In this document: in pieces, positions 357 to 13,467 of the stretch
Layout of the letters: each line of letters opens with the position of its first letter
How positions within the stretch are numbered: the stretch's first letter is position 1
NCBI GenBank assembly: GCA_947174235.1
Contig: CAMWID010000032.1
Coordinates: 1 to 37,502 of the forward strand
Source of the DNA: an uncultured Porphyromonadaceae bacterium
GTDB taxonomy: Bacteria > Bacteroidota > Bacteroidia > Bacteroidales > Muribaculaceae
Length of the DNA: 37,502 nucleotides
Direction: 5' to 3'
The notes under the pieces: model-generated
Seen by the model: the letters and a program-made list of their open reading frames with translations, nothing else
Databases searched by the model: none
Told to the model about the DNA's origin: nothing
Translations under genes and position numbers: made by a program

Positions 357-998
357 ATGAAAAAGATTATTACCTCGCTCATGATGCTCATGATGCTTTT
401 GCCTGCCTATGCGGATGATGTGCAGAAATCTCTTGACAAAGCTCTTCAGAAGGCTCAGAAGAAAGAGATGAAGCAAAAAATGAAAGACTATAAGAAGGAC
501 GGCTATGAAGTCATGGGGAGCCGTACGATGGAAGTGGCTCTTCTCAAACACTACAGCAAGCTTAACGAGCTTGGAGATGACGGCGCCGTGTTTGAAGGGT
601 ATTCCTCCGGTACAAAATCCAAAAATTCAGCGGAACAGATGGCGATCAACAACGCCACTATCAAATACGCGCAGAAAGCCGGCAGCACTGTAAAGGGTAG
701 AGTGGTGACCGACATCTTTGCTGACGGCACCGGGGATGATTCCGAATTTGAGAAATTCTATGCCGCTTACGAGCGCCTTGTGGAGCAGAAAGTTAAAAAT
801 GTGCTTGTGCCCAGCTATTCTGTCATCAGAAAAAATGCCGACGGCACATATGAGCTGCAGGCGTTTTTCATAGTGGATGAAAACAAGGCACGCGCTGCCC
901 GTAAGGCTGCTCTTGAGAATGCTCTGACTGAAAGCCAGCTCGCACAAAAATATGCCGATTCAGTGAGAGACTTTATAAATGACCGTGTGGAAGACTGA
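357..998 (+). CDS. Exported LPP20/FlgT_N-like hypothetical protein
   Basis: The 213-residue product begins with a clear signal peptide (MKKI..., hydrophobic core with repeated Met/Leu, probable cleavage after PAYA). A Lys/Gln-rich helical stretch follows (residues about 22-48). The central region (about 75-175) contains a pattern of an Ala/Asn-rich helix, VKGRVVTDIF, and later a YELQAFFIVDE strand. This resembles LPP20/FlgT N-terminal type SHS2-like folds, where an exported protein carries a helix followed by strands. The C-terminus is charged and helical. It is the first gene of a same-strand group with a propeller/OmpA protein, a caspase-like protein, a DUF4384 protein and a transglutaminase-like protein. 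No catalytic residues are evident. The family assignment is by appearance only; the export prediction is solid, the function unknown. Confidence 0.6.
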   Translation: MKKIITSLMMLMMLLPAYADDVQKSLDKALQKAQKKEMKQKMKDYKKDGYEVMGSRTMEVALLKHYSKLNELGDDGAVFEGYSSGTKSKNSAEQMAINNATIKYAQKAGSTVKGRVVTDIFADGTGDDSEFEKFYAAYERLVEQKVKNVLVPSYSVIRKNADGTYELQAFFIVDENKARAARKAALENALTESQLAQKYADSVRDFINDRVED

Positions 999-1071
999 TG
1001 CATAGTCATACCGAGATACGGGGTAATCACCCCTGTTGATCTCTGAATAGTTTAATCAATATTGCTTTAAA

Positions 1072-3165
1072 ATGAAAATCAAGACTATCGCATCGTCAAT
1101 ATTTTGTGTGTCGATGGTTGTCGCAGTGCCCTGTGCATATGCGCAGGAAACTGTCGCACAGCCGACACCCAAGGTGGATTATGTCTTCAAAATGAAGACT
1201 ACCCCGATCAAACTGTCGCCATACAACACAATAGTATATTCCCGTACTCCACAGGAAGTTCTCACAATGAGAGGTGACCAGTTGTATGTGACAAAAAAGA
1301 ATATACTGACATTCAATGTCAATCCGTCCGGGGTCAGCTTCGGACTGGTGGAGCAGGATAAAAAAGGGAAAAGAGAGGCGAATTTCTATTCTACGTCTGC
1401 TCAGAATGAGAAAATCGGCACTTTTGATTCCAAGAAATATGGTCAGCCTGCGGCGATTGTATATACTCCTGACGCCCGTAAGGTAATGGTGGCTACAGAT
1501 CAGGGGCTGTTCATATTCGAGCCAAGGAAAATGACGCTCCTTGACAGGATGGATCTTCCCTTCGTGCCTACAGCCATGTCGATAAGTGACAATGCATATT
1601 ATCTCACCATATCAGGAGGAGACCGTGTGGCGGTATATAATCTCGAACAGAAGACGGTGCGTCGCGACTGGACTTATGGCGTAGAAGTCACCGACATGAC
1701 TTTCTCAAAGGGGAGCGGAGAGTTTGCCGTACTGACAGAAGACGGAATGTTGAGTGTCTACGACACGCGGACGTTCAATATCAAGAATACAATAGATGAT
1801 CTCGGGAGCGGAATCGCCTGTGCGTTCAACAACGACGGGAAATATATAGTCGTTGCTACTGCCCCTGATTCACTTGAGATTATCAATCTTGTGCGTCCGT
1901 CAGACCGTAACACCCTTCCGGTGGAAGGTGGTGGAGTGAGCGACATCGAGTTTATAAAAGATACTGAAGGCAACTCCATACTTGTCTATACCGGAGATAT
2001 GATGCTTCACGCACGCCGCATGCAGGATCTTGAACCCCATTTCGCCAAGCTGATTTCCGATGAGGTAGACCAGATGATGGCTGACTGGGAAAAGATGATG
2101 CCGGGAGAGAGCATGGATGACTACAGGCTTCGTGTCAATGAGGAGACCCGCGCGCGCCAGCGTCGTCTTTTCGAGGATGAGATCTCCACTCAGCTTGCCG
2201 GCGACCTTCTTGCCGGAGCCACCATGAGCCTCGGTAACTATGACCGTACAAACCAGGTGCTGGCTATAGATTTCTCTACTATGCCGACAATCTATCTTCC
2301 TGTCCCTGAGTCTGACGTGACATCTTTCCATGACGCTGACGATCTTATTCTGTCGGAGGTGCAGTATGGGGTGCTTCCTGACGATACATTCGAGATCGTG
2401 TATGCCAAAGTATTCAACAAGAACGACGGCAAGACATATGAGTATAACAATCATGACCGTGTGGCGATGGATTTCATGGGGGGTGATTCAAACGTCGTTT
2501 CCCTTGAGATACTTCAGCAGCAGCAGATGGAGGAACTGAAACTTCAGGAACTGCGCGAGAAGGTGGTGGAAGAGGCACGCAACACGAGTGTGATCTCCAA
2601 CCACACGAACATCGCGGTCGACTCGAAAGTGGTGCCCGATTATGACGCCAACGGAGAAAAGATACTCAACTATGAGGTGAATTTCACATATCAGGTTGAT
2701 CCGGAATTCTCTGCGGCAGAAGACTTTCCTCCAGGCAAATATCTGGTGGATGAGTCGGGAGCGGCAAGTTCCATGCTCAAGATAGTAAAAGAGGCGTTTG
2801 AAGGAGACTTTGCCCAATATATCAAAGACGGCAAGAAGCTTAAAGTCACAATATCCGGTACGGCGGATGCCACCCCTATCATACGCACGATCGCATATGA
2901 CGGTTCATATGGAGATTTTGAAGACGAACCCATCTATGAGAACGGAGATTTGACAGCCATAACAGTGACGAAGGCAGGAGGTGTGAAAGAAAACAGACAG
3001 CTTGCATTCCTGCGTGCGCAAGGGGTGAAGAACTATCTTCAGAACAATGTCAATAATCTTGACAAGATGGATGCCGATTACGTATTCCGTGTTGACGTGT
3101 CCGAAGGTAAGGGAAGCGAATTCCGCAGGATCACCGCCAACTTCACTTTCATAGACGTATTCTGA
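1072..3165 (+). CDS. Exported beta-propeller (WD40-like) protein with OmpA-like C-terminus
   Basis: This 697-residue protein has a signal peptide ending near CAYA-QE (residue 24). Residues about 50-320 show repeated four-stranded units with WD40/YVTN character (for example VYTPDARKVMVATDQGLFIFE and AFNNDGKYIVVATAPDSLEI), so a beta-propeller is likely. Residues about 338-465 form a module that also occurs in the caspase protein encoded next: a Trp, then a DDYRLRV-type helix, then LxxxxYD, a strand, a VPVP/VNVPL element and a D/NGKxYxY strand. A Gln/Glu-rich helix lies at 483-505. The C-terminal region (about 530-697) ends with features of OmpA-like peptidoglycan-associated domains: a VTISGTADATP strand, then NRQLAFLRAQGVKNYL, then FRVDVSEGKGSEFRR. 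The spacing to the previous gene is 73 nt. A role as a periplasmic, wall-anchored sensor or scaffold is inference. Confidence 0.7.
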   Translation: MKIKTIASSIFCVSMVVAVPCAYAQETVAQPTPKVDYVFKMKTTPIKLSPYNTIVYSRTPQEVLTMRGDQLYVTKKNILTFNVNPSGVSFGLVEQDKKGKREANFYSTSAQNEKIGTFDSKKYGQPAAIVYTPDARKVMVATDQGLFIFEPRKMTLLDRMDLPFVPTAMSISDNAYYLTISGGDRVAVYNLEQKTVRRDWTYGVEVTDMTFSKGSGEFAVLTEDGMLSVYDTRTFNIKNTIDDLGSGIACAFNNDGKYIVVATAPDSLEIINLVRPSDRNTLPVEGGGVSDIEFIKDTEGNSILVYTGDMMLHARRMQDLEPHFAKLISDEVDQMMADWEKMMPGESMDDYRLRVNEETRARQRRLFEDEISTQLAGDLLAGATMSLGNYDRTNQVLAIDFSTMPTIYLPVPESDVTSFHDADDLILSEVQYGVLPDDTFEIVYAKVFNKNDGKTYEYNNHDRVAMDFMGGDSNVVSLEILQQQQMEELKLQELREKVVEEARNTSVISNHTNIAVDSKVVPDYDANGEKILNYEVNFTYQVDPEFSAAEDFPPGKYLVDESGAASSMLKIVKEAFEGDFAQYIKDGKKLKVTISGTADATPIIRTIAYDGSYGDFEDEPIYENGDLTAITVTKAGGVKENRQLAFLRAQGVKNYLQNNVNNLDKMDADYVFRVDVSEGKGSEFRRITANFTFIDVF

Positions 3166-3266
3166 ACGAGCAGAAAGAAGTTGTAGAAATAATCCCGGAA
3201 AAGATTATAAGCTTCAACTTCCATGATTCATTTTCCAGTAAGCCGGAAATATGAATATTCCAATAG

Positions 3267-3293
3267 CTCCCCCGCATGGACGGGGGAGTTTTT
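3267..3293 (+). terminator. Rho-independent terminator-like hairpin before the caspase start
   Basis: CTCCCCCG at 3267-3274 pairs perfectly with CGGGGGAG at 3281-3288 around the 6-nt loop CATGGA. Five T residues follow (3289-3293). This is the standard form of an intrinsic terminator on the + strand. It lies after the propeller/OmpA gene and only 13 nt before the preferred ATG (3307) of the caspase gene. It would fall inside the coding region if the ATG at 3223 were used. It may end the first transcript or attenuate expression of the three downstream genes. Confidence 0.75.
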
Positions 3294-3306
3294 AACCATA
3301 ATTTCT

Positions 3307-5898
3307 ATGATTGACAATAAATATTTCAATAAATTATTTCGTGTGAGGGTGTCGCGTCTCGCGTATCCCGCCCTTGCATTCTCAATACTTGTAGGGGGAG
3401 GCACGTTGACCGCCTTCCCGGTAGATCCGGAGGATCCCGCAGAGATGGTCTCTGCTTCCGGTCCTTCAGCGGAAAACGCGGCGGAACTTTACAGGAAGGT
3501 GAAAGACCTTCAGTTCGAGGGGGCTGACGACGCTTCTTTCTATCCCGCTGTGCTTGCCGCTTTTTCGGAAGCGTTTTCCGTCATCACCGGAGAAGGACAT
3601 GAAGAAGCCGAACTTGATCAGTGTAAGGGTATTTTGCTTGATCTCAACAATACACTTGCAAGGGGAGCGGTGTATTATTCGGTCAACAGCAATTCCTCAG
3701 AGATGACAAAGTTTGCCAAAGCATATGTGGACACTCAGTTGCTTCCGCAGATGGCAGGCGTGGAGTTCAGACGTGACGCCGAGCTTTATCCCGCCATGGT
3801 CTACTGCGCCGCTTCAGGGAGCTATAACGCGGGGGATATCGACAACGCGATAAAATACTTTGAAGAGTATCTTGCCACGGGTGAAAAGAAACAGCGTGAG
3901 CAGGTAAGCCTCTTCTATGGACAGGCACTGCTTAATAAGAAACTATATAACAAAGGTGTGGATGCCATAGTTAAGGCATCTGATGAATATCCGTCGAATT
4001 TCAAGTTGCTGACAATCGCCATGCAGCTTTGTATAGACGGCAACCGCCGCGACCTGCTCGCCCCTCTTGTGGAGCGTGGTCTTGAAGTGAAGCCGGATGA
4101 TGAACGGCTTCTGAATCTTCAGGCTTCGGTATATGAGGACCAGCACAACTATCGCGGGGCTCTCGATATCTATATGAAACTTGAAGAGCTGCATCCCAAC
4201 AGCCTCAGCGTCAATGAATGTGTGGCAAGGTGCTACTATAATCTCGGAACAGGATATTACAACCGGTCTATCTCTGAACTCGACGAGAAAGAAGCTGCGA
4301 AACAGCGTCGGCAGAGCAATGCATATTTTTCAAGTGCGGCAGAGAAATACGAGGAGCTTTCCGCCAATGATCCAAACAATCCCAAATATCTGAAAGCGAT
4401 GGCGACTTCTTACGCCTGTCTCGGCAACAAGTCGAAGGTGGAGAGCATCAACGTTCGCCTTTCCGCCCTCGGACAGCCTACGATGGCTATGAACACAATG
4501 CCTGTGATCATAGGCAACGGTTCGCAGGGATCCAATGCCTCTTCACCGAGAAATATTCCTTCTTATCAGGAATATGCCATGGCGTATGTGCGCGACCAGC
4601 TTAAAGACTGGATGAAACGCGGTGAATTTGAAAAGACTGAAGACTATGAGAAGAGGGTTTCAAAAGAGAATGTCAGAAAAGAACAGGAACGCCTGAGCGA
4701 TATCATAGCCGACAAGTATCTCAAGACTTATGCGAACCAGCTTGCAATTTCGGAACTCAAACTGCAACCATATGATGTGGATCATGAGACCTATGCCGTA
4801 AATTCTGAATTTGGTACGGTGGTGGTGAATGTCCCTCTGAAAAACAGGGAAGCGGAGATTTTTAAAAACAGCTGGGACGAAGTTAAAATCCGCAATCCGA
4901 AGTTTTTTATAAAGCATGACAATATCGCCATAGAGTCGATCTCTTTCATAACACCCGACGGAAAGGAATACGCATACAGGGCTTCAGACCGGAATCAATA
5001 TGAGGGCGACAAAGTGGTCCAGGTGGATATCGCAGATTTCTTCGACAAGCCCGCAGTGTCGTCTCATGATAAAAATGCCGGAAAGACGGGCACCACTTAC
5101 GTGGCTACAGTCAAGAGCGATGTTGATAAGAATATTCCGAAAACATCAGCTGTCAATGAACGCACGCTTGCCCTTGTCATAGCCAATGAGAATTATAGCA
5201 AAGTCGTCAATGTGACAGCCGCCAGCCATGACGGCGAGGTGTTCGCCCAATATTGTAAAGAAACTCTCGGAATCCCCGAAAACCAGGTGCTTGTATATAA
5301 AGACGCCACTTTCGGAGAGACACTTTCCGCAATCAACAAACTGCGTAATTCAGTGAAAGCTCTGGGTGAAGGTGTGGACGTGATTGTGTATTATGCCGGT
5401 CACGGAGTGCCGGACGAAAGCACCAACGATGCATATATGATGCCTGTGGATGCCGATCCTATGGTGATGGCAACCGCATATCCGCTCAAGCAATTCTATA
5501 AGGAACTGAACGGTCTTGGGGCGGACAATATCATGGTCTTTATGGACGCATGTTTCAGCGGAGCCAACAGAGGTGACGGCATGCTTGCCGAAGCCCGTGG
5601 CGTAGTGCTTGTGCCGAAACATGCCGCCCCGGAGGGTAACATGTTTGTATTGAGTGCCGCCGACGGCAAGGAGACGGCGCTCCCGTATAAGGAGAAGAAC
5701 CACGGACTTTTCACCTATTACCTGTTGAAAAAACTTCAGGATTCCAAAGGGCATGCCACCCTTCAGGAACTAAGTGATTATGTCACCACGGAAGTCCGCA
5801 AGACGTCGAGTCTGACCCTCAACAAACCACAGAATCCGAAGATGACGGTGTCAGGAACGATTTCCGGGATGCTGTCGCAGAAAAAACTTCATCCTTAA
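3307..5898 (+). CDS. Exported TPR protein with C-terminal caspase-like (peptidase C14) domain
   Basis: The C-terminal ~240 residues form a caspase/metacaspase-type fold: LALVIANENY first strand, catalytic His in VYYAGHG and catalytic Cys in MDACFSG. These are His727 and Cys777 counted from the alternative ATG at 3223, or His699 and Cys749 from 3307. The middle (about 190-410) is helical and TPR-like (SYNAGDIDNAIKYFEEYL and similar). Residues about 463-592 are the module shared with the preceding propeller protein. I chose ATG 3307 because it gives a normal signal peptide (basic n-region, then YPALAFSILVGGG). The upstream ATG at 3223 would add 28 residues encoded across a terminator hairpin. 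The family cleaves after Arg/Lys or Asp depending on subgroup; the specificity here is unknown. The stop is 9 nt before the DUF4384 gene, so the two are probably co-transcribed. Confidence 0.88.
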   Translation: MIDNKYFNKLFRVRVSRLAYPALAFSILVGGGTLTAFPVDPEDPAEMVSASGPSAENAAELYRKVKDLQFEGADDASFYPAVLAAFSEAFSVITGEGHEEAELDQCKGILLDLNNTLARGAVYYSVNSNSSEMTKFAKAYVDTQLLPQMAGVEFRRDAELYPAMVYCAASGSYNAGDIDNAIKYFEEYLATGEKKQREQVSLFYGQALLNKKLYNKGVDAIVKASDEYPSNFKLLTIAMQLCIDGNRRDLLAPLVERGLEVKPDDERLLNLQASVYEDQHNYRGALDIYMKLEELHPNSLSVNECVARCYYNLGTGYYNRSISELDEKEAAKQRRQSNAYFSSAAEKYEELSANDPNNPKYLKAMATSYACLGNKSKVESINVRLSALGQPTMAMNTMPVIIGNGSQGSNASSPRNIPSYQEYAMAYVRDQLKDWMKRGEFEKTEDYEKRVSKENVRKEQERLSDIIADKYLKTYANQLAISELKLQPYDVDHETYAVNSEFGTVVVNVPLKNREAEIFKNSWDEVKIRNPKFFIKHDNIAIESISFITPDGKEYAYRASDRNQYEGDKVVQVDIADFFDKPAVSSHDKNAGKTGTTYVATVKSDVDKNIPKTSAVNERTLALVIANENYSKVVNVTAASHDGEVFAQYCKETLGIPENQVLVYKDATFGETLSAINKLRNSVKALGEGVDVIVYYAGHGVPDESTNDAYMMPVDADPMVMATAYPLKQFYKELNGLGADNIMVFMDACFSGANRGDGMLAEARGVVLVPKHAAPEGNMFVLSAADGKETALPYKEKNHGLFTYYLLKKLQDSKGHATLQELSDYVTTEVRKTSSLTLNKPQNPKMTVSGTISGMLSQKKLHP

Positions 5899-5907
5899 GA
5901 TTATCTT

Positions 5908-6792
5908 ATGATACGGTTTGACAGAATAGTGACAGTCGCGGCAGCCATTTTTATGGCTGTCACGGCTGTCGCCGCCCCTCCGATAAAGTCGGTTAAGGGT
6001 GAATATACATATTATGGCGACAAATCCACTTCTCCCGCAGAATGTAAACGCCTTGCCCTGGAGGGTGCGCGTCTGGACGCTCTTTCAAAAGAATTTGGCA
6101 CGATTGTCACACAAGACGTGATGCAGGCTGATCGTATAGACTCCAAAGGGGAAAGCAATAAATTCCTTTCGCTTTCGTCTACCGAGGTAAAAGGGGAATG
6201 GATAGCTGACGACGGCGAGCCTGTATATGACATATCCCTTGACAATGAAGACAACTTTGTGGTGCGTTGTGTCGTGAAAGGGAAAGCCCGCGAGATCTCA
6301 AACGAGGCGACTGAATTTGATGCCAGGGTACTTAGAAACGGTACGAAGCCGGGAAATGCCGCTACCGAGTTTTATGACGGAGATGACCTTTACTTGTATT
6401 TCACCGCTCCGGTGGACGGTTTCGTATCCGTATATCTTTCTCTCGAAGATGGGAATGTCTATCAGATGCTCCCTTATCTCGGAGATGTGAAAGGGGAGGC
6501 AAAGGTGAAAAAGGGGTATGATTACGTCTTTTTTGATCCTTCGAAGGCGGAGGGATCTTTCGGTACGCCCGACCAGTTCAGGATAGCGACAGACGGGGTG
6601 ATTGAGTTCAACAAGATTTATGTGGTATTCTCGCCATCTTATTTTGCCAAACCGGTGATGAGATCACAAAACGGAGTGGAGGCGCTGCCGTCGGTCACGG
6701 AAAGTGATTTCTCCAAGTGGCTTGTGAAAACTCGCCGCAACGATCCGAAACTTGGCGTAAAGCAGATGAATTTGAAGATTTATCCCAAATAA
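5908..6792 (+). CDS. Exported DUF4384 protein with FlgT_N/LPP20-like N-terminal domain
   Basis: The 294-residue product has a signal peptide (cleavage near AVAA-PP, residue 23). Residues about 27-130 resemble an LPP20/FlgT_N-type domain: VKGEYTYYG, a Cys/Ala-rich helix ARLDALSKEFGTIV, then VKGEWIADDGEPVYDI and FVVRCVVKGKAREI. Residues about 155-245 match the DUF4384 pattern: GDDLYLYFTAPVDGFVSVYL, then GNVYQMLPY, and a final KIYVVFSP. Proteins with DUF4384 are often encoded beside, or fused to, caspase-like peptidases in Bacteroidota, which fits this position. It sits 9 nt after the caspase gene and 9 nt before the transglutaminase-like gene, so an operon is very likely. It may be a partner or substrate-binding component of the peptidase. 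No enzymatic residues are seen. Confidence 0.78.
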   Translation: MIRFDRIVTVAAAIFMAVTAVAAPPIKSVKGEYTYYGDKSTSPAECKRLALEGARLDALSKEFGTIVTQDVMQADRIDSKGESNKFLSLSSTEVKGEWIADDGEPVYDISLDNEDNFVVRCVVKGKAREISNEATEFDARVLRNGTKPGNAATEFYDGDDLYLYFTAPVDGFVSVYLSLEDGNVYQMLPYLGDVKGEAKVKKGYDYVFFDPSKAEGSFGTPDQFRIATDGVIEFNKIYVVFSPSYFAKPVMRSQNGVEALPSVTESDFSKWLVKTRRNDPKLGVKQMNLKIYPK

Positions 6793-6801
6793 AACAGGAG
6801 T

Positions 6802-8454
6802 ATGATGGATATAAAGAAATTTATATTGATGGGAGCCTTAGCCGGAGGAATGTCGGTACAGGCGCAAGCGCCACAGAGCTTTCAGGAGTTCAGGCAGGGT
6901 ATACTAAATGATTTCCAGGAATTCCGCAGGACTGTGCTTGATCATTATGCAGATTTTCTGAACGGCACCTGGCATGAATATGAACCTTTGGCTCCATTGG
7001 AAAAACCTAAGGCTCCGAAGCCTATGACGGTGCCCGACGTCTCTGTCTCAAAACCGGCAACCGAGCCTGTGAACTTGCCGAAACCTGTTCTCGCTGAACT
7101 TCCGGAATCAAAAGTTGTGCCGGAATCGCCTGAAGAGGTAGAAGATTCAGGCAACAGACCGACCACACCGTTTGACGCACCCAAGACTGTGACTCCGCCG
7201 GAGGCGAAGGATATCGTCCCGCCTACCATAAAAGTAAGACCTGATCTCGGAGGGGCTCCGCTCCTTGCGGCTCTTCCTGACATCCCTCGTCCTGTGGTGC
7301 CGGAAGAAGAGTCTGCGGAAGAGACCCCGGCAGAGGTTCCTGTGCCTGAAGAATCAAGGGCGGGGAAGGAGCCTGTCATATTTTATGGAATGGAGATACT
7401 TGTCCCGCAGGTTAATTTCAAGATAATGCAGTCAATGGGAAGCGTGGCTGATTTCGCCCGCAACTGGAAACTTCTTGACGAACAGGAAGTGGCTGAGTCC
7501 GCATTGGATGCTCTCCGACCCAAGATGGAACAGTTGGGGCTCAATGACTACCTTTCGTATGAATTTCTGTGTGCATATATGGATTCCAAATTCCCGGAAG
7601 CCGCATCAGCACCTAAAATGTCGGCAGTGCATTATCTCCTTTCCCATATGGGATATAACGCACGTATCGCACTGTCTACAAAAACCGGAGATCCGATATT
7701 GCTTATGCCTGCTGTGCAGACCCTCTACGGGAAAGTATACATGACTCTCGGGGGAGAAAGATATTATGTCATGACCGCTCCCGGAGTGAATGTGGCGGGT
7801 TCGCCTATAGCCACGTGCGATCTTCCTAAAATCGCCACGAAAGGGAAGAAATTCGATCTCCGCATAAAAGGATTGAACCTGCCGGTGAAAGAACATAAGT
7901 TTAATGTCAATTATGGTAAACTTTCTCTTTCAGGCAGTGTCAATGAAAACATGATGCCGATAGTCTACCGCTATCCGCAGATGGATACCGCAGACTTCGC
8001 CGAAAGTGAACTTGACTGTGGGCTTAGAAAAAAACTTGTGGCGCAGATAAGGGAACAGCTCGGAGGTATGGACCGGCTTGCCGCCACTAATGAGTTGCTG
8101 CAGTTTGTACAGTCGGGATTTGCCTATGCCACAGATGACTCGTTTCATGGATTCGAGAAACCTTATTTTCTTGAGGAGAACTTTTATTATCCGAAAAATG
8201 ATTGCGAGGACAGGGCGATATTCTATACCTACATGCTTTGGAACGCATTGGGAATAGAGAATCATCTTCTCTTTTATCCCGGTCATGAGAGTGCTTCGGT
8301 AGCGTTGCCGGATAATGTCAGCGGTACTTCTTATGAGCATGACGGGAAGAAATTTTATATCTCGGATCCTACCTATGTGGGTTCCGTGACAGGACAATGT
8401 ATGCCCCAGTTTGTGACGACGGTTCCCAAGATTGATCTTGCTATGCCGAAGTAA
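6802..8454 (+). CDS. Exported transglutaminase/LapG-like cysteine protease with Pro-rich linker
   Basis: The protein has 550 residues with a signal peptide (MDIKKFILMGALAGGMSVQAQA). A long Pro/Glu/Lys-rich, low-complexity segment spans residues about 60-190 and probably acts as an extended spacer. A mixed alpha/beta region covers 195-400. The C-terminal catalytic part shows a transglutaminase-type triad: Cys468 in NDCEDRA, His495 in YPGHESASVAL and Asp522 in YISDPTYVG. The DCED-R-A signature is like that of bacterial transglutaminase-like cysteine proteinases such as LapG. The order Cys-His-Asp and the spacing fit a working enzyme. The gene follows DUF4384 by 9 nt and ends the cassette before a terminator-like hairpin. 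A second peptidase alongside the caspase suggests a proteolytic cascade or envelope remodelling (inference). The neighbouring ATG at 6805 is an equally possible start. Confidence 0.72.
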   Translation: MMDIKKFILMGALAGGMSVQAQAPQSFQEFRQGILNDFQEFRRTVLDHYADFLNGTWHEYEPLAPLEKPKAPKPMTVPDVSVSKPATEPVNLPKPVLAELPESKVVPESPEEVEDSGNRPTTPFDAPKTVTPPEAKDIVPPTIKVRPDLGGAPLLAALPDIPRPVVPEEESAEETPAEVPVPEESRAGKEPVIFYGMEILVPQVNFKIMQSMGSVADFARNWKLLDEQEVAESALDALRPKMEQLGLNDYLSYEFLCAYMDSKFPEAASAPKMSAVHYLLSHMGYNARIALSTKTGDPILLMPAVQTLYGKVYMTLGGERYYVMTAPGVNVAGSPIATCDLPKIATKGKKFDLRIKGLNLPVKEHKFNVNYGKLSLSGSVNENMMPIVYRYPQMDTADFAESELDCGLRKKLVAQIREQLGGMDRLAATNELLQFVQSGFAYATDDSFHGFEKPYFLEENFYYPKNDCEDRAIFYTYMLWNALGIENHLLFYPGHESASVALPDNVSGTSYEHDGKKFYISDPTYVGSVTGQCMPQFVTTVPKIDLAMPK

Positions 8455-8551: not shown

Positions 8552-8652
8552 GCACATATCCGGATGTATATGCGTTATTAAGAGTAACTGCCTATGAATG
8601 GCATGTGATCCGAATGAAAAGGAAATCATATAAAATTATAACATATATAGTG

Positions 8653-9642
8653 ATGAAATACTTGAAAATATTATTGGCGATAATTGCTTTTTCCGTATGC
8701 GGGACAGTCAATGCGAAAAGGATCGTGGCATATGTCACCTCATGGAGTGATGTCATGCCGGATCCCAAGTCAATGACCAATATAAATTATGCGTTCGGTC
8801 ATGTCGCTGATTCTTTTGACGGGGTACGTATAGATAATGAAAGCCGTCTTCGTGACATTGTAGCTCTGAAAAAGAAAAACAAGAAGCTTGAGGTGCAACT
8901 TTCTATAGGAGGATGGGGAAGCGGGAATTTCAGCGAGATGGCGGCTGATCCGGTTAAAAGGGCTGCATTTGCCAAGGATTGCAAAAGAGTCGTGGACGAA
9001 TACGGACTTGACGGCATTGATATAGACTGGGAATATCCGGGAAGCGGTCTTGCAGGTATCTCAAGTTCTCCTGAAGACAAGGACAATTACCAGTTGCTGA
9101 TGCAGGATATCCGTAAGGCGATAGGGGATGGGAAGCTCCTTACGCTCGCTTCTCCGGCTACCGTCGGTTTTTATGAATTCGGTCCTCTGATGCCATATGT
9201 GGATTTTGTGAATATCATGGCTTATGACCTTAACCGTCCTCCTTATCACCATTCCGCCCTGTTCCGGTCGGAATTAAGCGGAGAGATGACCGCCGATGAA
9301 GGTGTGCGTGCCCATATGGAGGCGGGTGTCCCGTCTGAAAAGATTGTTCTTGGCGTGCCGTTTTATGGCCATGGAAAGAAAGGGGAGTATCCCGATTTTA
9401 TAAACTACCGCGACATCAAACCGGGAGAAGGTCTGAAAGAAAAGTATGATGAAGTCGCATGTATGCCCTATATGGTCAACGATGCAGGGGAGATGGTCAT
9501 ATGTTATGACAATCCGGAATCGTTGAAAAGAAAATGTCGTTATGTCAACGATTCCGGATTGGGAGGGATCATGTACTGGGATTATGCGGGAGACACAGAC
9601 AACGGAGATCTCCGGAAAACAATCAGTAAATATCTCAAATAA
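8653..9642 (+). CDS. Exported glycoside hydrolase family 18 (chitinase-like) enzyme
   Basis: The sequence contains the GH18 catalytic motif DGIDIDWE (DxxDxDxE; the final Glu is the catalytic acid), the SIGGWG strand and the NIMAYDL strand, and the terminal GIMYWDYAGD motif. GH18 enzymes are TIM barrels that cleave GlcNAc-beta-1,4 bonds in chitin-like glycans, or in N-glycan cores for the endo-beta-N-acetylglucosaminidase branch. The catalytic domain is compact, with no carbohydrate-binding module. I chose ATG 8653 because it gives a standard signal peptide (MKYLKILLAIIAF..., cleavage near VNA-KR). Upstream in-frame alternatives are GTG 8605 and ATG 8614, which would give an over-long n-region. 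The protein starts almost directly at the barrel after cleavage and carries no lipobox. It is isolated by terminator hairpins and converges on the EamA gene, so it seems to be a single-gene unit. Whether the substrate is chitin, peptidoglycan-related glycans or host N-glycans cannot be told. Confidence 0.9.
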   Translation: MKYLKILLAIIAFSVCGTVNAKRIVAYVTSWSDVMPDPKSMTNINYAFGHVADSFDGVRIDNESRLRDIVALKKKNKKLEVQLSIGGWGSGNFSEMAADPVKRAAFAKDCKRVVDEYGLDGIDIDWEYPGSGLAGISSSPEDKDNYQLLMQDIRKAIGDGKLLTLASPATVGFYEFGPLMPYVDFVNIMAYDLNRPPYHHSALFRSELSGEMTADEGVRAHMEAGVPSEKIVLGVPFYGHGKKGEYPDFINYRDIKPGEGLKEKYDEVACMPYMVNDAGEMVICYDNPESLKRKCRYVNDSGLGGIMYWDYAGDTDNGDLRKTISKYLK

Positions 9643-10653: not shown

Positions 10654-12120
10654 TTATCTTTTCCAGAAAGAGGGGAGGAGGAGCACGAGGAAAGTGAATA
10701 GCTCAAGCCTGCCGATAAGCATCACTGCCATCAGAAGCCATTTGACGGCATAGGGAAGGCATGCAAATGATCCTCCCGCTCCTGTGACTCCGTATCCGAG
10801 TCCGTTGCAGCCTATGCATGAACACACCATGAAAAGGGAGTCTGTCATGGAGTATCCATATAAAGTTATCACCGCTGTCGAGAAAACAATGATGAGGACG
10901 TAGAGAGTGATGAACGCCGAGATCCTTGTCACCTGTCCGTTGTTAAGCGCGCTTCCGTTTAGCTGGACCACATAAGTGCGTTTCGGGAAGACTGTTTTCT
11001 TTATCTCGTTCTGGAAATTTTCTTTCATAGCGATCATCCTGTCAACTTTTATTCCACCCGAGGTCGATCCGGCACATGCCCCGCATATCATCAGGAATAT
11101 TGTGAGGAAGAGAGAGAACGGCCCCCAGGATTCTGTCCCGTCAATAGAAAATCCTGTAGATGTTACAGCGGAGATGATATGGAATATAGGGTAAAGGAAC
11201 AGGGTGTCCCAGCCTGTTTCCGCACCACGGATTAGGGTAGACAACAACAGAAGGATATAGGCGCACACCACAATAGCTGCGAACCATCGGAATATCGAAT
11301 TCTGAAGCAACGAGCGTATTCCCTGTCGCCGGATGTTGTAAAGGGCTATGAAATTAAGTCCCGCCACAAACATGACTACGGTGAGTACGGAAAGTATATA
11401 GTCGGAATGCCAGAACCCCACACCTTCGTTGCGTGTGGAGAACCCTCCTGTGGCGATCGCCGCGAATGTCTGGCATATGCTGTCGAAAAGATTCATAGGA
11501 CCCGCCCAGAGGAGCAGTGTCGACAGCAGGGTTATCAGAACGTATATACCCCAGATTGATATGGCTGTCTGACGTATTCTCGGATGCAGTTTGTCGTGGG
11601 TGATACCTGTGGCTTCGGCATTGAACATCGATATGCCGGACGCCTTGTTGAGTTCGGGGAGCACGGCAAGCATAAAAAGAATAATACCGAGTCCGCCTAT
11701 CCATTGAGTGAACGCCCTCCAGAAAAGGATTCCGTGCGACATCTCCTCCACATCAGTGATGACACTTGCTCCGGTGGTGGTGAATCCGGAAATGACTTCA
11801 AACATGGCGTCCGTAAATCCGATATGATCGTGACACAGCATGAAAGGTATCATGCCGAAGAAAGAAAATATTATCCATATTACCGAAGTGATAATAAAAC
11901 CTTCTCGGCTCCTTATCACAGCCGATCCATTATGTCGGGTCGCGATTTCCGCCACACTCCCTGTGACAGCGGCAAGTACGGCGGTGGCAAGGAATACATA
12001 CCAGTCATCTTCAAGATATATGATGCTCACAAGCATCGGTATAAGAAGCAGAAGTGCCTCTATGAGGAGCAACCGTCCGATCACCCTTACAATCGCATAG
12101 GGATTTAAAGAAGCTATCAT
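10654..12120 (-). CDS. trkH: TrkH-family potassium uptake channel subunit
   Basis: The 488-residue membrane protein has the four selectivity-filter loops expected of TrkH/KtrB: TTTGAS, ATGGFS, TSTGFS and GCNGLGYG, each after a pore helix and each with the conserved glycine. The N-terminus has a pair of extra helices as in TrkH. TrkH forms a dimeric K+-permeable channel in the inner membrane gated by the cytosolic TrkA ring. Its gene follows trkA by 12 nt on the same strand, the normal arrangement in Bacteroidota, so the pair is almost certainly one transcript. Length matches the family (about 480-490). Confidence 0.94.
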   Translation of the reverse strand: MIASLNPYAIVRVIGRLLLIEALLLLIPMLVSIIYLEDDWYVFLATAVLAAVTGSVAEIATRHNGSAVIRSREGFIITSVIWIIFSFFGMIPFMLCHDHIGFTDAMFEVISGFTTTGASVITDVEEMSHGILFWRAFTQWIGGLGIILFMLAVLPELNKASGISMFNAEATGITHDKLHPRIRQTAISIWGIYVLITLLSTLLLWAGPMNLFDSICQTFAAIATGGFSTRNEGVGFWHSDYILSVLTVVMFVAGLNFIALYNIRRQGIRSLLQNSIFRWFAAIVVCAYILLLLSTLIRGAETGWDTLFLYPIFHIISAVTSTGFSIDGTESWGPFSLFLTIFLMICGACAGSTSGGIKVDRMIAMKENFQNEIKKTVFPKRTYVVQLNGSALNNGQVTRISAFITLYVLIIVFSTAVITLYGYSMTDSLFMVCSCIGCNGLGYGVTGAGGSFACLPYAVKWLLMAVMLIGRLELFTFLVLLLPSFWKR

Positions 12121-12132
12121 GATAATGGTGCG

Positions 12133-13467
12133 TTATCTGAAGAATCGGCTTAATTTAGGAAGACTTCCCGGCATGTAGAATACCACGACATGATCTCCCG
12201 GCATAATTCTGGTGCGTCCTTCGGCAAGGATCCCGGTACGGTCTCTGATTATTCCACCGACGGTGATATCGCGTGGCAACGACAGTTCCGCGACAGGGGC
12301 GGATACTATCTTTGAATCTGCGGTGGCGATTATTTCCGTTATTTCCGCAGTTCCGAGAGATATGCATTGGGCAGTAGCCATGTTGCAGTCAAGGAGCACA
12401 CTTAGTATCTTTCCGGAATTTAGAAGTTTTTTATTGATTATCTTGTCTATAGCCAGATTTTCTGCTTCAGGCATATATTGCAGTTCCTCAATTCTCGCAA
12501 CAGTCTTGCCGACACGGTGTTCTCTCGCCACCATACATGATACAATATTTTTCTCTGAGCTTCCAGTGAGGGCAAGAAACATATCGCATTGGTCGATCCC
12601 TTCCTCTTCAAGAGTGATTATATCGTTCACTCTTGAGTTTACAGTCACGACATCAGGAAAACGGGAGGCGATGACTCCACACCGGTCTTTGTCGGGATCG
12701 ATCACTGTCACATCATATTGTCCGGAGATGAGTTCAAGCAGATTCTCGGTTACACGCCCTGCTCCTGAAATCATAATTTTTTTGGTGCGTCTGACCTTTT
12801 TGCCGCAGAGCTCAGGCAGGATATCGCAATTGCCGGGCAGTACTGAGAAGTAGATCGTGTCGCCTTCGAGGAGTTTGTCATCTCCTCTCGGAATTATAAC
12901 CGAAGTGCCACGCCTGATTGCGGAAACGTGGAAAAGTCTTGGATTGTTTGGGACTTCGTTAAGTGATTTTCCGCATAATGCGCCGTCGGGCTGCATTTTC
13001 ACACCAGCGATGATCAGGGCTCCCTGATGAAGTTCGATCCAGTCGCTGACCCAGTTGTGCCTGATGAAATGCAGGATCTCGACGGCAGCGAGTTTTTCCG
13101 GATAGATAGTCATGTCTATCCCCATTCTCAGGAAAAGGCTACGGTTTGAATCGGAGTCAAAATCAGGGTTGTCAATGCGCGCCACGCATTTTAACGCTCC
13201 GCAGTCTTTGGCGAGCTGGCATGAGATAAGGTTTACAGTTTCGTCGGGAGTCACCGCCACAAACATGTCTGCCCCGTCTGCACCGCATTGAAGCAGATTT
13301 GATCTTGACATAGGACTCCCTTCAAAAGTAATGAAGTTTCCGGAAGCATCAAGTTCAGCAAGATGTTCCCGGTCTGTTCCCATAAGTACCACGTCTTGTC
13401 CTTCGACAGAAAGGGTACGAGCCATATGTGTGCCTGTCTCCCCGTCGCCGGCTACAATTATTTTCAT
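12133..13467 (-). CDS. trkA: TrkA potassium transport regulatory subunit
   Basis: The 444-residue protein has two RCK units, each with a Rossmann NAD-binding half and a TrkA_C half. The first begins MKIIVAGDGETGTHMA and the second begins near residue 231 with MISGAGRVTENLLEL. The first nucleotide loop reads GDGETG where GAGEVG is more usual, but the glycines are kept. TrkA binds NAD(H)/ATP and controls K+ flow through TrkH. It is the first gene of the trkA-trkH-EamA group. A promoter matching the Bacteroidota consensus lies at 13601-13631 (minus), leaving a leader of about 128 nt that contains a long inverted repeat. Confidence 0.94.
   Translation of the reverse strand: MKIIVAGDGETGTHMARTLSVEGQDVVLMGTDREHLAELDASGNFITFEGSPMSRSNLLQCGADGADMFVAVTPDETVNLISCQLAKDCGALKCVARIDNPDFDSDSNRSLFLRMGIDMTIYPEKLAAVEILHFIRHNWVSDWIELHQGALIIAGVKMQPDGALCGKSLNEVPNNPRLFHVSAIRRGTSVIIPRGDDKLLEGDTIYFSVLPGNCDILPELCGKKVRRTKKIMISGAGRVTENLLELISGQYDVTVIDPDKDRCGVIASRFPDVVTVNSRVNDIITLEEEGIDQCDMFLALTGSSEKNIVSCMVAREHRVGKTVARIEELQYMPEAENLAIDKIINKKLLNSGKILSVLLDCNMATAQCISLGTAEITEIIATADSKIVSAPVAELSLPRDITVGGIIRDRTGILAEGRTRIMPGDHVVVFYMPGSLPKLSRFFR

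Follow-up and report, generated by a model that had tools for sequence, protein, structure and literature searches.

The stretch analysed here, the window, is an entire contig (C32, 37502 bases) of a 3.44 Mb genome in 138 contigs from an uncultured bacterium of the Muribaculaceae. Close to its start lie five open reading frames, g1 to g5, all on the same strand between positions 357 and 8454, which encode exported-looking proteins and include two unrelated cysteine peptidases, a caspase-like protein (g3) and a LapG-like enzyme (g5). We call this set a new combination of known domain kinds together with a new LapG-like branch. Coordinates, strand, gene order and the two 9-nt gaps, between g3 and g4 (5898 to 5908) and between g4 and g5 (6792 to 6802), agree with a preliminary description of this DNA. 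Upstream of g1 there are merely 356 bases before the contig ends. Since promoter and terminator scans were both near chance (18 hits against 13.8 in shuffled sequences, and 9 against 9.7, respectively), the limits of the operon were set by gene spacing.

Table 1. Positions of the five genes and of their predicted domains and motifs in the window
Feature	Position	Strand	Basis
g1, 213 amino acids, exported-looking, LPP20-like	357..998	+	Open reading frame list; hhalign to family H7
g2, 697 amino acids, WD40-type propeller, shared domain, OmpA-like C-terminus	1072..3165	+	Sub-cut-off Pfam matches; conserved D599/R648
g2 residues 322-463, domain in common with g3	2035..2460	+	blastp, family hhalign
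g2 residues 577-659, predicted OmpA-like wall-binding domain	2800..3048	+	Sub-cut-off Pfam OmpA; conserved Asp/Arg
g3, TPR-caspase; likely true start 3307 (Met29)	3223..5898	+	PF00656, 72 bits; invariant Met29
g3 residues 446-590, its copy of the g2/g3 shared domain	4558..4992	+	blastp, family hhalign
g3 caspase domain, H727 and C777	5149..5895	+	
g4, 294 amino acids, DUF4384-type	5908..6792	+	DUF4384, 23.5 bits, sub-cut-off
g5, 550 amino acids, LapG-like: N-terminal helix, Pro-rich linker, middle region, C-terminal transglutaminase-fold domain	6802..8454	+	
g5 Asp-Cys-Glu motif, D467-C468-E469: nucleophile and predicted calcium site	8200..8208	+	Row conservation; DvhG parallel

Two conserved predicted cysteine peptidases and their neighbours

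In g5, the predicted triad is C468-H495-D522, and Cys-His-Asp was found in all 106 readable rows of the 107-row family alignment, the nucleophile motif being DCE in 104 of them and DCD in 2. On comparing the g5 profile with an alignment of nine LapG sequences (one from a genome reached via locus L116, eight from plasmid records), the two aligned in register; the first comparison, made with a single LapG sequence, had reached only 49%, and a viral_contigs scan with that sequence found no relative. Foldseek alone gave g5 no PDB match at E up to 0.001, so the assignment of a transglutaminase-like fold is based on VIA-align and the profile. The search of the g5 alignment against solved-structure sequences returned two acyltransferase matches only (E 0.18 and 0.94). 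No Pfam family, LapG (PF06035) included, matched g5 at E up to 0.1, and NCBIfam held no model for g5 or for three scanned relatives; a LapG label drawn from Pfam alone thus fails for this protein. Judged by its predicted fold, its profile and its Asp-Cys-Glu calcium-site motif, g5 is LapG-like, and the enzyme with complete Cys-His-Asp residues originally noted here stands, even though the Pfam LapG model does not recognise it. In DvhG the corresponding D-C-E has been mutated as the calcium site (PMC13090378). Cleavage by LapG depends on calcium and takes place at a [T/A/P]AAG site; by analogy g5 may use calcium.

The likeness to LapG and DvhG (peptidase C93, PF06035) thus extends to the transglutaminase fold, the Cys-His-Asp residues, the Asp-Cys-Glu at the nucleophile and the predicted periplasmic site. 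Unlike them, g5 has a long extra N-terminal region and a Pro-rich linker in addition to lacking a PF06035 match. Its neighbours also differ, since it lies among LPP20, DUF4384 and caspase genes, whereas the Vibrio LapG compared has an HlyD gene of type I secretion on one side and an EAL-domain gene on the other. The sole g5-family match in the window's genome is the one on C32.

The second peptidase, g3, matched Peptidase_C14 (PF00656) at 72 bits (cut-off 21.4), as well as two TPR-type models above their cut-offs. Its caspase dyad is H727-C777, and His-Cys was kept in 24 of 24 cases, so that both catalytic sites of the set proved to be conserved. The predicted model of g3 has a predicted local distance difference test score (pLDDT) of 83 and a predicted template modelling score (pTM) of 0.47, and hence its domain placement is not trusted; the VIA structure-match list spans the caspase domain only. 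In the solved-structure sequence search this domain found designed propellers only, which we judged to be spurious repeat matches. A second caspase-domain gene of the same genome lies at G000:C26:35840-36562 (55 bits).

In its PF00656 match, its His-Cys dyad and its TPR, g3 resembles the orthocaspases, or prokaryotic metacaspases (C14). Surveys describe caspases that carry WD40, TPR, CHASE2 or DUF4384 within a single chain: the domains most often joined to prokaryotic caspases include WD40 and TPR (PMC3501461), and CHASE2 and DUF4384 are reported as partner domains in cyanobacteria (PMC7475262). In contrast to the orthocaspases, the same domain kinds are here split over separate exported-looking proteins of a single gene run, beside a second, unrelated protease.

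The propeller protein g2 matched WD40-type models in Pfam, each under its own cut-off. At its C-terminus the OmpA model (PF00691) reached 18.4 bits, below its cut-off of 27.2, while Asp599 and Arg648, which we take to be the wall-binding-site motif of OmpA, were invariant in 30 of 30 cases. These invariant residues bear out the earlier view of a propeller protein with an OmpA-like end, whose score itself stays under the cut-off, and this end suggests that g2 may be anchored to the wall. We also observed that g2 and g3 share a domain (blastp 3e-5; family hhalign 97.9%, E 4.7e-13).

For g1, Pfam gave nothing convincing and no LPP20 (PF02169) match at E up to 0.1; for 25 g1 relatives LPP20 was likewise absent among the matches listed (25 of 28 families). 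The neighbouring family H7, in which 2 of 8 members scanned pass the LPP20 cut-off, aligned with g1 at an hhalign probability of 97.3%. Calling g1 LPP20-like, as was done before, therefore depends on this link to H7 and has no direct Pfam support. In the solved-structure sequence search g1 alone had no match and its alignment a single one at E 0.68. The LPP20- and DUF4384-type proteins described elsewhere are typically linked to flagella or to the Helicobacter outer membrane. DUF4384 (PF14326) scored 23.5 bits in g4, under the cut-off of 27, and 27.6 bits, above it, in the g4 relative of L127; the g4 alignment found no match among solved-structure sequences.

In a simple hydropathy scan each of the five proteins showed a hydrophobic N-terminus, that of g3 being counted from Met29. 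This methionine (window 3307) is invariant across a 62-row alignment and the signal-like stretch fits it, and translation of g3 probably starts there. Signal peptides on all five products had been proposed; the hydrophobic N-termini are in keeping with this, for g3 only from the later start. Along with the domain types, they suggest export of all five. The first 35 residues of g1, g3, g4 and g5 contain no cysteine, and the g2 cysteines at positions 12 and 21 are not lipobox-like by eye.

Conservation of the set and the wider family

In order to follow the set in related genomes, we defined a close g5 copy as one with E below 1e-90 among 99 genomes of the window's family. Such copies were found in 13 of the 99, the window included, and all five genes occurred together in 13 of 13; in one genome, G012, the g5 gene is divided between two contig ends. 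A second, named collection was limited to g5 copies that scored 200 bits or higher with at least 8 kb upstream (n=29), and all five genes accompanied 19 of these, 4 of which appear to repeat genomes already counted. Five of the 19 loci are titled Bacteroides, Alistipes or Rikenellaceae. The order g1-g2-g3-g4-g5 was seen in the window, L033 and L074, and the remaining all-five loci read g2-g3-g4-g1-g5. The genes were kept at 32-78% identity among related loci. An LPP20-type gene likewise comes first in the distant loci L051 and L132, which carry extra genes.

Under uniform placement in 2.5 Mb genomes, counted within 12 kb over the 99 genomes, a caspase was observed at 28 of 54 g5-family places, where 0.99 such pairs would be expected. 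Propeller-caspase pairs (22/24 against 0.57 expected) and pairs of CHASE2 with the g5 family (13/20 against 0.23) were likewise linked. The layout is more than chance, and the five-gene set is common but not obligatory. The genes often occur together and both active sites are conserved, so that neither of the findings named as refuting in the preliminary description was made; the pairing of two unrelated cysteine peptidases in one exported-looking set, singled out there, recurs in related loci.

Of the 12 other family loci, 10 have a CHASE2 gene and an exported-looking gene that we term F4 ahead of the set; the queries for both came from L038, itself one of these loci, where CHASE2 scored 77.6 bits. 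The five Bacteroides-, Alistipes- or Rikenellaceae-titled loci had neither. An assignment of F4 as FecR is unproven (PF04773 in 0 of 16 members; hhalign 8.3% to a true FecR protein). The Prevotellaceae-titled L148 encodes a g5 relative that begins with a fused F4-like domain. The region L148:6512-15518 holds two g5 relatives, CHASE2 (53.2 bits), the F4-transglutaminase fusion and, further on, a leucine-rich-repeat caspase (62.5 bits), and is, on its predicted domains, a different arrangement of the same parts. A CHASE2 match with one in-frame TGA, perhaps a decaying copy, lies at G011:C12:56821-57519, on a different contig than the cassette of G011, in which the propeller frame is split in two (L043).

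We also looked at the wider g5 family. A named-genome scan gave 581 g5 relatives among 591 matched stretches, and the best 80 of the 581, those nearest the query, were kept. Bacteroides fragilis and B. salyersiae are among them, as are records titled Gammaproteobacteria, Deltaproteobacteria, Seleniivibrio, Caldithrix and Latescibacterota, many of which are metagenome-assembled genomes whose titles may in some cases be wrong. Of 115 unique loci, the 92 with flanks of 5 kb or more upstream and 2 kb or more downstream were used for counting neighbours, defined as genes on the same strand within 8 kb; LPP20-type here means the g1 family or H7. An LPP20-type gene was near the g5 family in 76 of the 92 loci (77 with a looser set that adds H8, H10 and DUF4384), a caspase in 41 and a propeller in 30. 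As controls we took 20 regions of 19.9 kb in these genomes that lay apart from any g5 relative; 1 had an LPP20-type hit and 1 a caspase hit. DUF4384 was present in 37 of the 41 caspase loci against 8 of the 51 others, and 37 of those 51 had an LPP20-type gene. Our reading is that there are two modules: a general one, in which the LapG-like enzyme goes with LPP20-type proteins, and an add-on made up of the caspase and DUF4384, often joined by the propeller.

LPP20- and DUF4384-type envelope proteins are in fact paired repeatedly with g5-family genes. The Gammaproteobacteria-titled L116 and L139 both have LPP20 above cut-off near such genes, and in the Deltaproteobacteria-titled L129 a g5 relative, DUF4384 (70 bits) and a caspase (57.1 bits) lie within 6.2 kb. 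A compact, caspase-free run of LPP20, DUF4384 and transglutaminase genes occupies L127:8411-11515 (Bacteroides fragilis Q1F2), with the same layout in L109, L120 and L141; it lies upstream of genes that by eye resemble those for phosphotransacetylase and acetate kinase. In L046, L047, L048 and L053 the g5 relative is the last of a series of genes that encode a DUF6175 protein (191 bits in L047) and, by eye, CsgG-like proteins, another caspase-free layout.

Past the cassette of the window, after 150 nt, a GH18 glycosidase gene (224.8 bits) occupies 8605-9642; as it was unmatched in 28 related loci, it probably lies outside the set. On the minus strand, 10654-13467 appears by eye to hold a TrkH/TrkA-type potassium uptake pair.

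Possible functions of the cassette

We tentatively hypothesise that the cassette is a two-protease envelope machine, in which the propeller protein and the TPR-caspase regulate a calcium-dependent LapG-like protease acting on LPP20-type proteins. In such a machine g2 would be a wall-anchored propeller in the periplasm, and g3 would dock beside it through the shared domain. An envelope signal, passing through CHASE2 and its partner in the relatives that have them, would free the caspase, which would cut after Arg or Lys, the family rule for orthocaspases (PMC6426788). By clipping either g4 or g5 itself the caspase would gate g5, and g5, on its long Pro-rich arm, might then trim or release an LPP20-type outer-membrane structure containing g1. 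This order of action is the least certain part, and the gating step is its weak point, as a caspase is missing from roughly half of the g5-family loci and a test of the g5 linker was null. If the caspase clipped g5, linkers from caspase loci would be expected to contain more Arg and Lys; in 107 of the 115 unique loci, proteins outside 380-700 amino acids being excluded, basic-residue content showed no difference by presence of a caspase (p 0.66). Arg count by itself gave p 0.013, uncorrected over five tests.

Several further observations weigh against such a machine. No same-strand caspase lies within 8 kb in 51 of the 92 g5-family loci, and 10 of the 29 close named g5 copies had no g2, g3 or g4 match, seven of them keeping g1; the LapG-like enzyme is therefore not generally caspase-dependent. 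The four cultured Bacteroides records (L109, L120, L127, L141) have the three-gene set only. One of these 10 copies, at L075:10001-11620 in a Bacteroides-titled metagenome-assembled genome, is 63% identical to the g5 of the window, and the other four genes are unmatched in the 10 kb upstream; it may be a solitary LapG-like gene, or the locus may have been rearranged. The spread of the close set is patchy (13/99), and a sample of 295 genomes from across the order had the propeller in only 7, counting that of the window. CHASE2 was unmatched anywhere in the window's genome, and such a sensor is hence not a fixed part. The loci counted are phylogenetically non-independent, and the family models were built from these same loci. 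The idea that the caspase is the activator, which was part of the preliminary description, thus found no clear signal in the linkers and is opposed by the caspase-free loci. Borne out are the conserved, exported-looking two-peptidase set, its LapG-like enzyme and the propeller protein with an OmpA-like end; the suggested role in stress would be speculative. We consider it unlikely that the fullest version applies, namely an extracytoplasmic caspase cascade in which a wall-anchored WD40/TPR-caspase, CHASE2-switched in relatives, cleaves and activates a new, widespread LapG-like branch that remodels LPP20-type outer-membrane machines in Bacteroidales and beyond.

Nearly as likely as the two-protease machine, and held just as tentatively, is the possibility that there is no cascade, g5 alone maturing LPP20/DUF4384-type outer-membrane assemblies while the caspase and propeller form a separate quality-control unit that shares the operon. 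The frequency of LPP20-type genes near g5, with or without a caspase, would be accounted for in this way, as would the three-gene sets of Bacteroides, the caspase-free close copies and the null linker test. On the other hand, DUF4384 tracks the caspase and the propeller-caspase-DUF4384 order is preserved ahead of g5, and coupling is therefore suggested. It is distinctly unlikely that g5 is instead a transglutaminase-fold cross-linker or amidase joining LPP20-type proteins to one another or to the wall, given its LapG-type calcium motif and the in-register LapG profile alignment. Caspase defence systems are typically cytoplasmic, and the exported look of this set speaks against a caspase that kills the cell as part of a self-destruct or anti-phage module; g3 does match the generic caspase model of PADLOC (2e-8), but the other four proteins, CHASE2 and F4 of L038 were unmatched there at E up to 0.01, and we regard this explanation as highly improbable. 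That the genes are neighbours by chance, sharing envelope regulation but no common function, would fit the caspase-free half of the loci; this reading is already disfavoured, and very remote, since the pairs counted are linked about 27 to 71 times as often as expected and the five genes are retained in diverged loci.

HvyA is a transglutaminase homologue that limits the capsule in Caulobacter (PMC4241560). As a transglutaminase homologue in surface control it would, by this description, be a parallel to g5. HvyA is not known to have a caspase partner. In the open-licence literature we found no description of the cassette or of the LapG-like branch. This branch is large, is present in cultured Bacteroides, and has LPP20-type genes nearby even in records not titled as Bacteroidota. 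Coupling of the two proteases, if real, would make the cassette an equivalent of caspase signalling in the envelope, open to testing in a cultured gut commensal.
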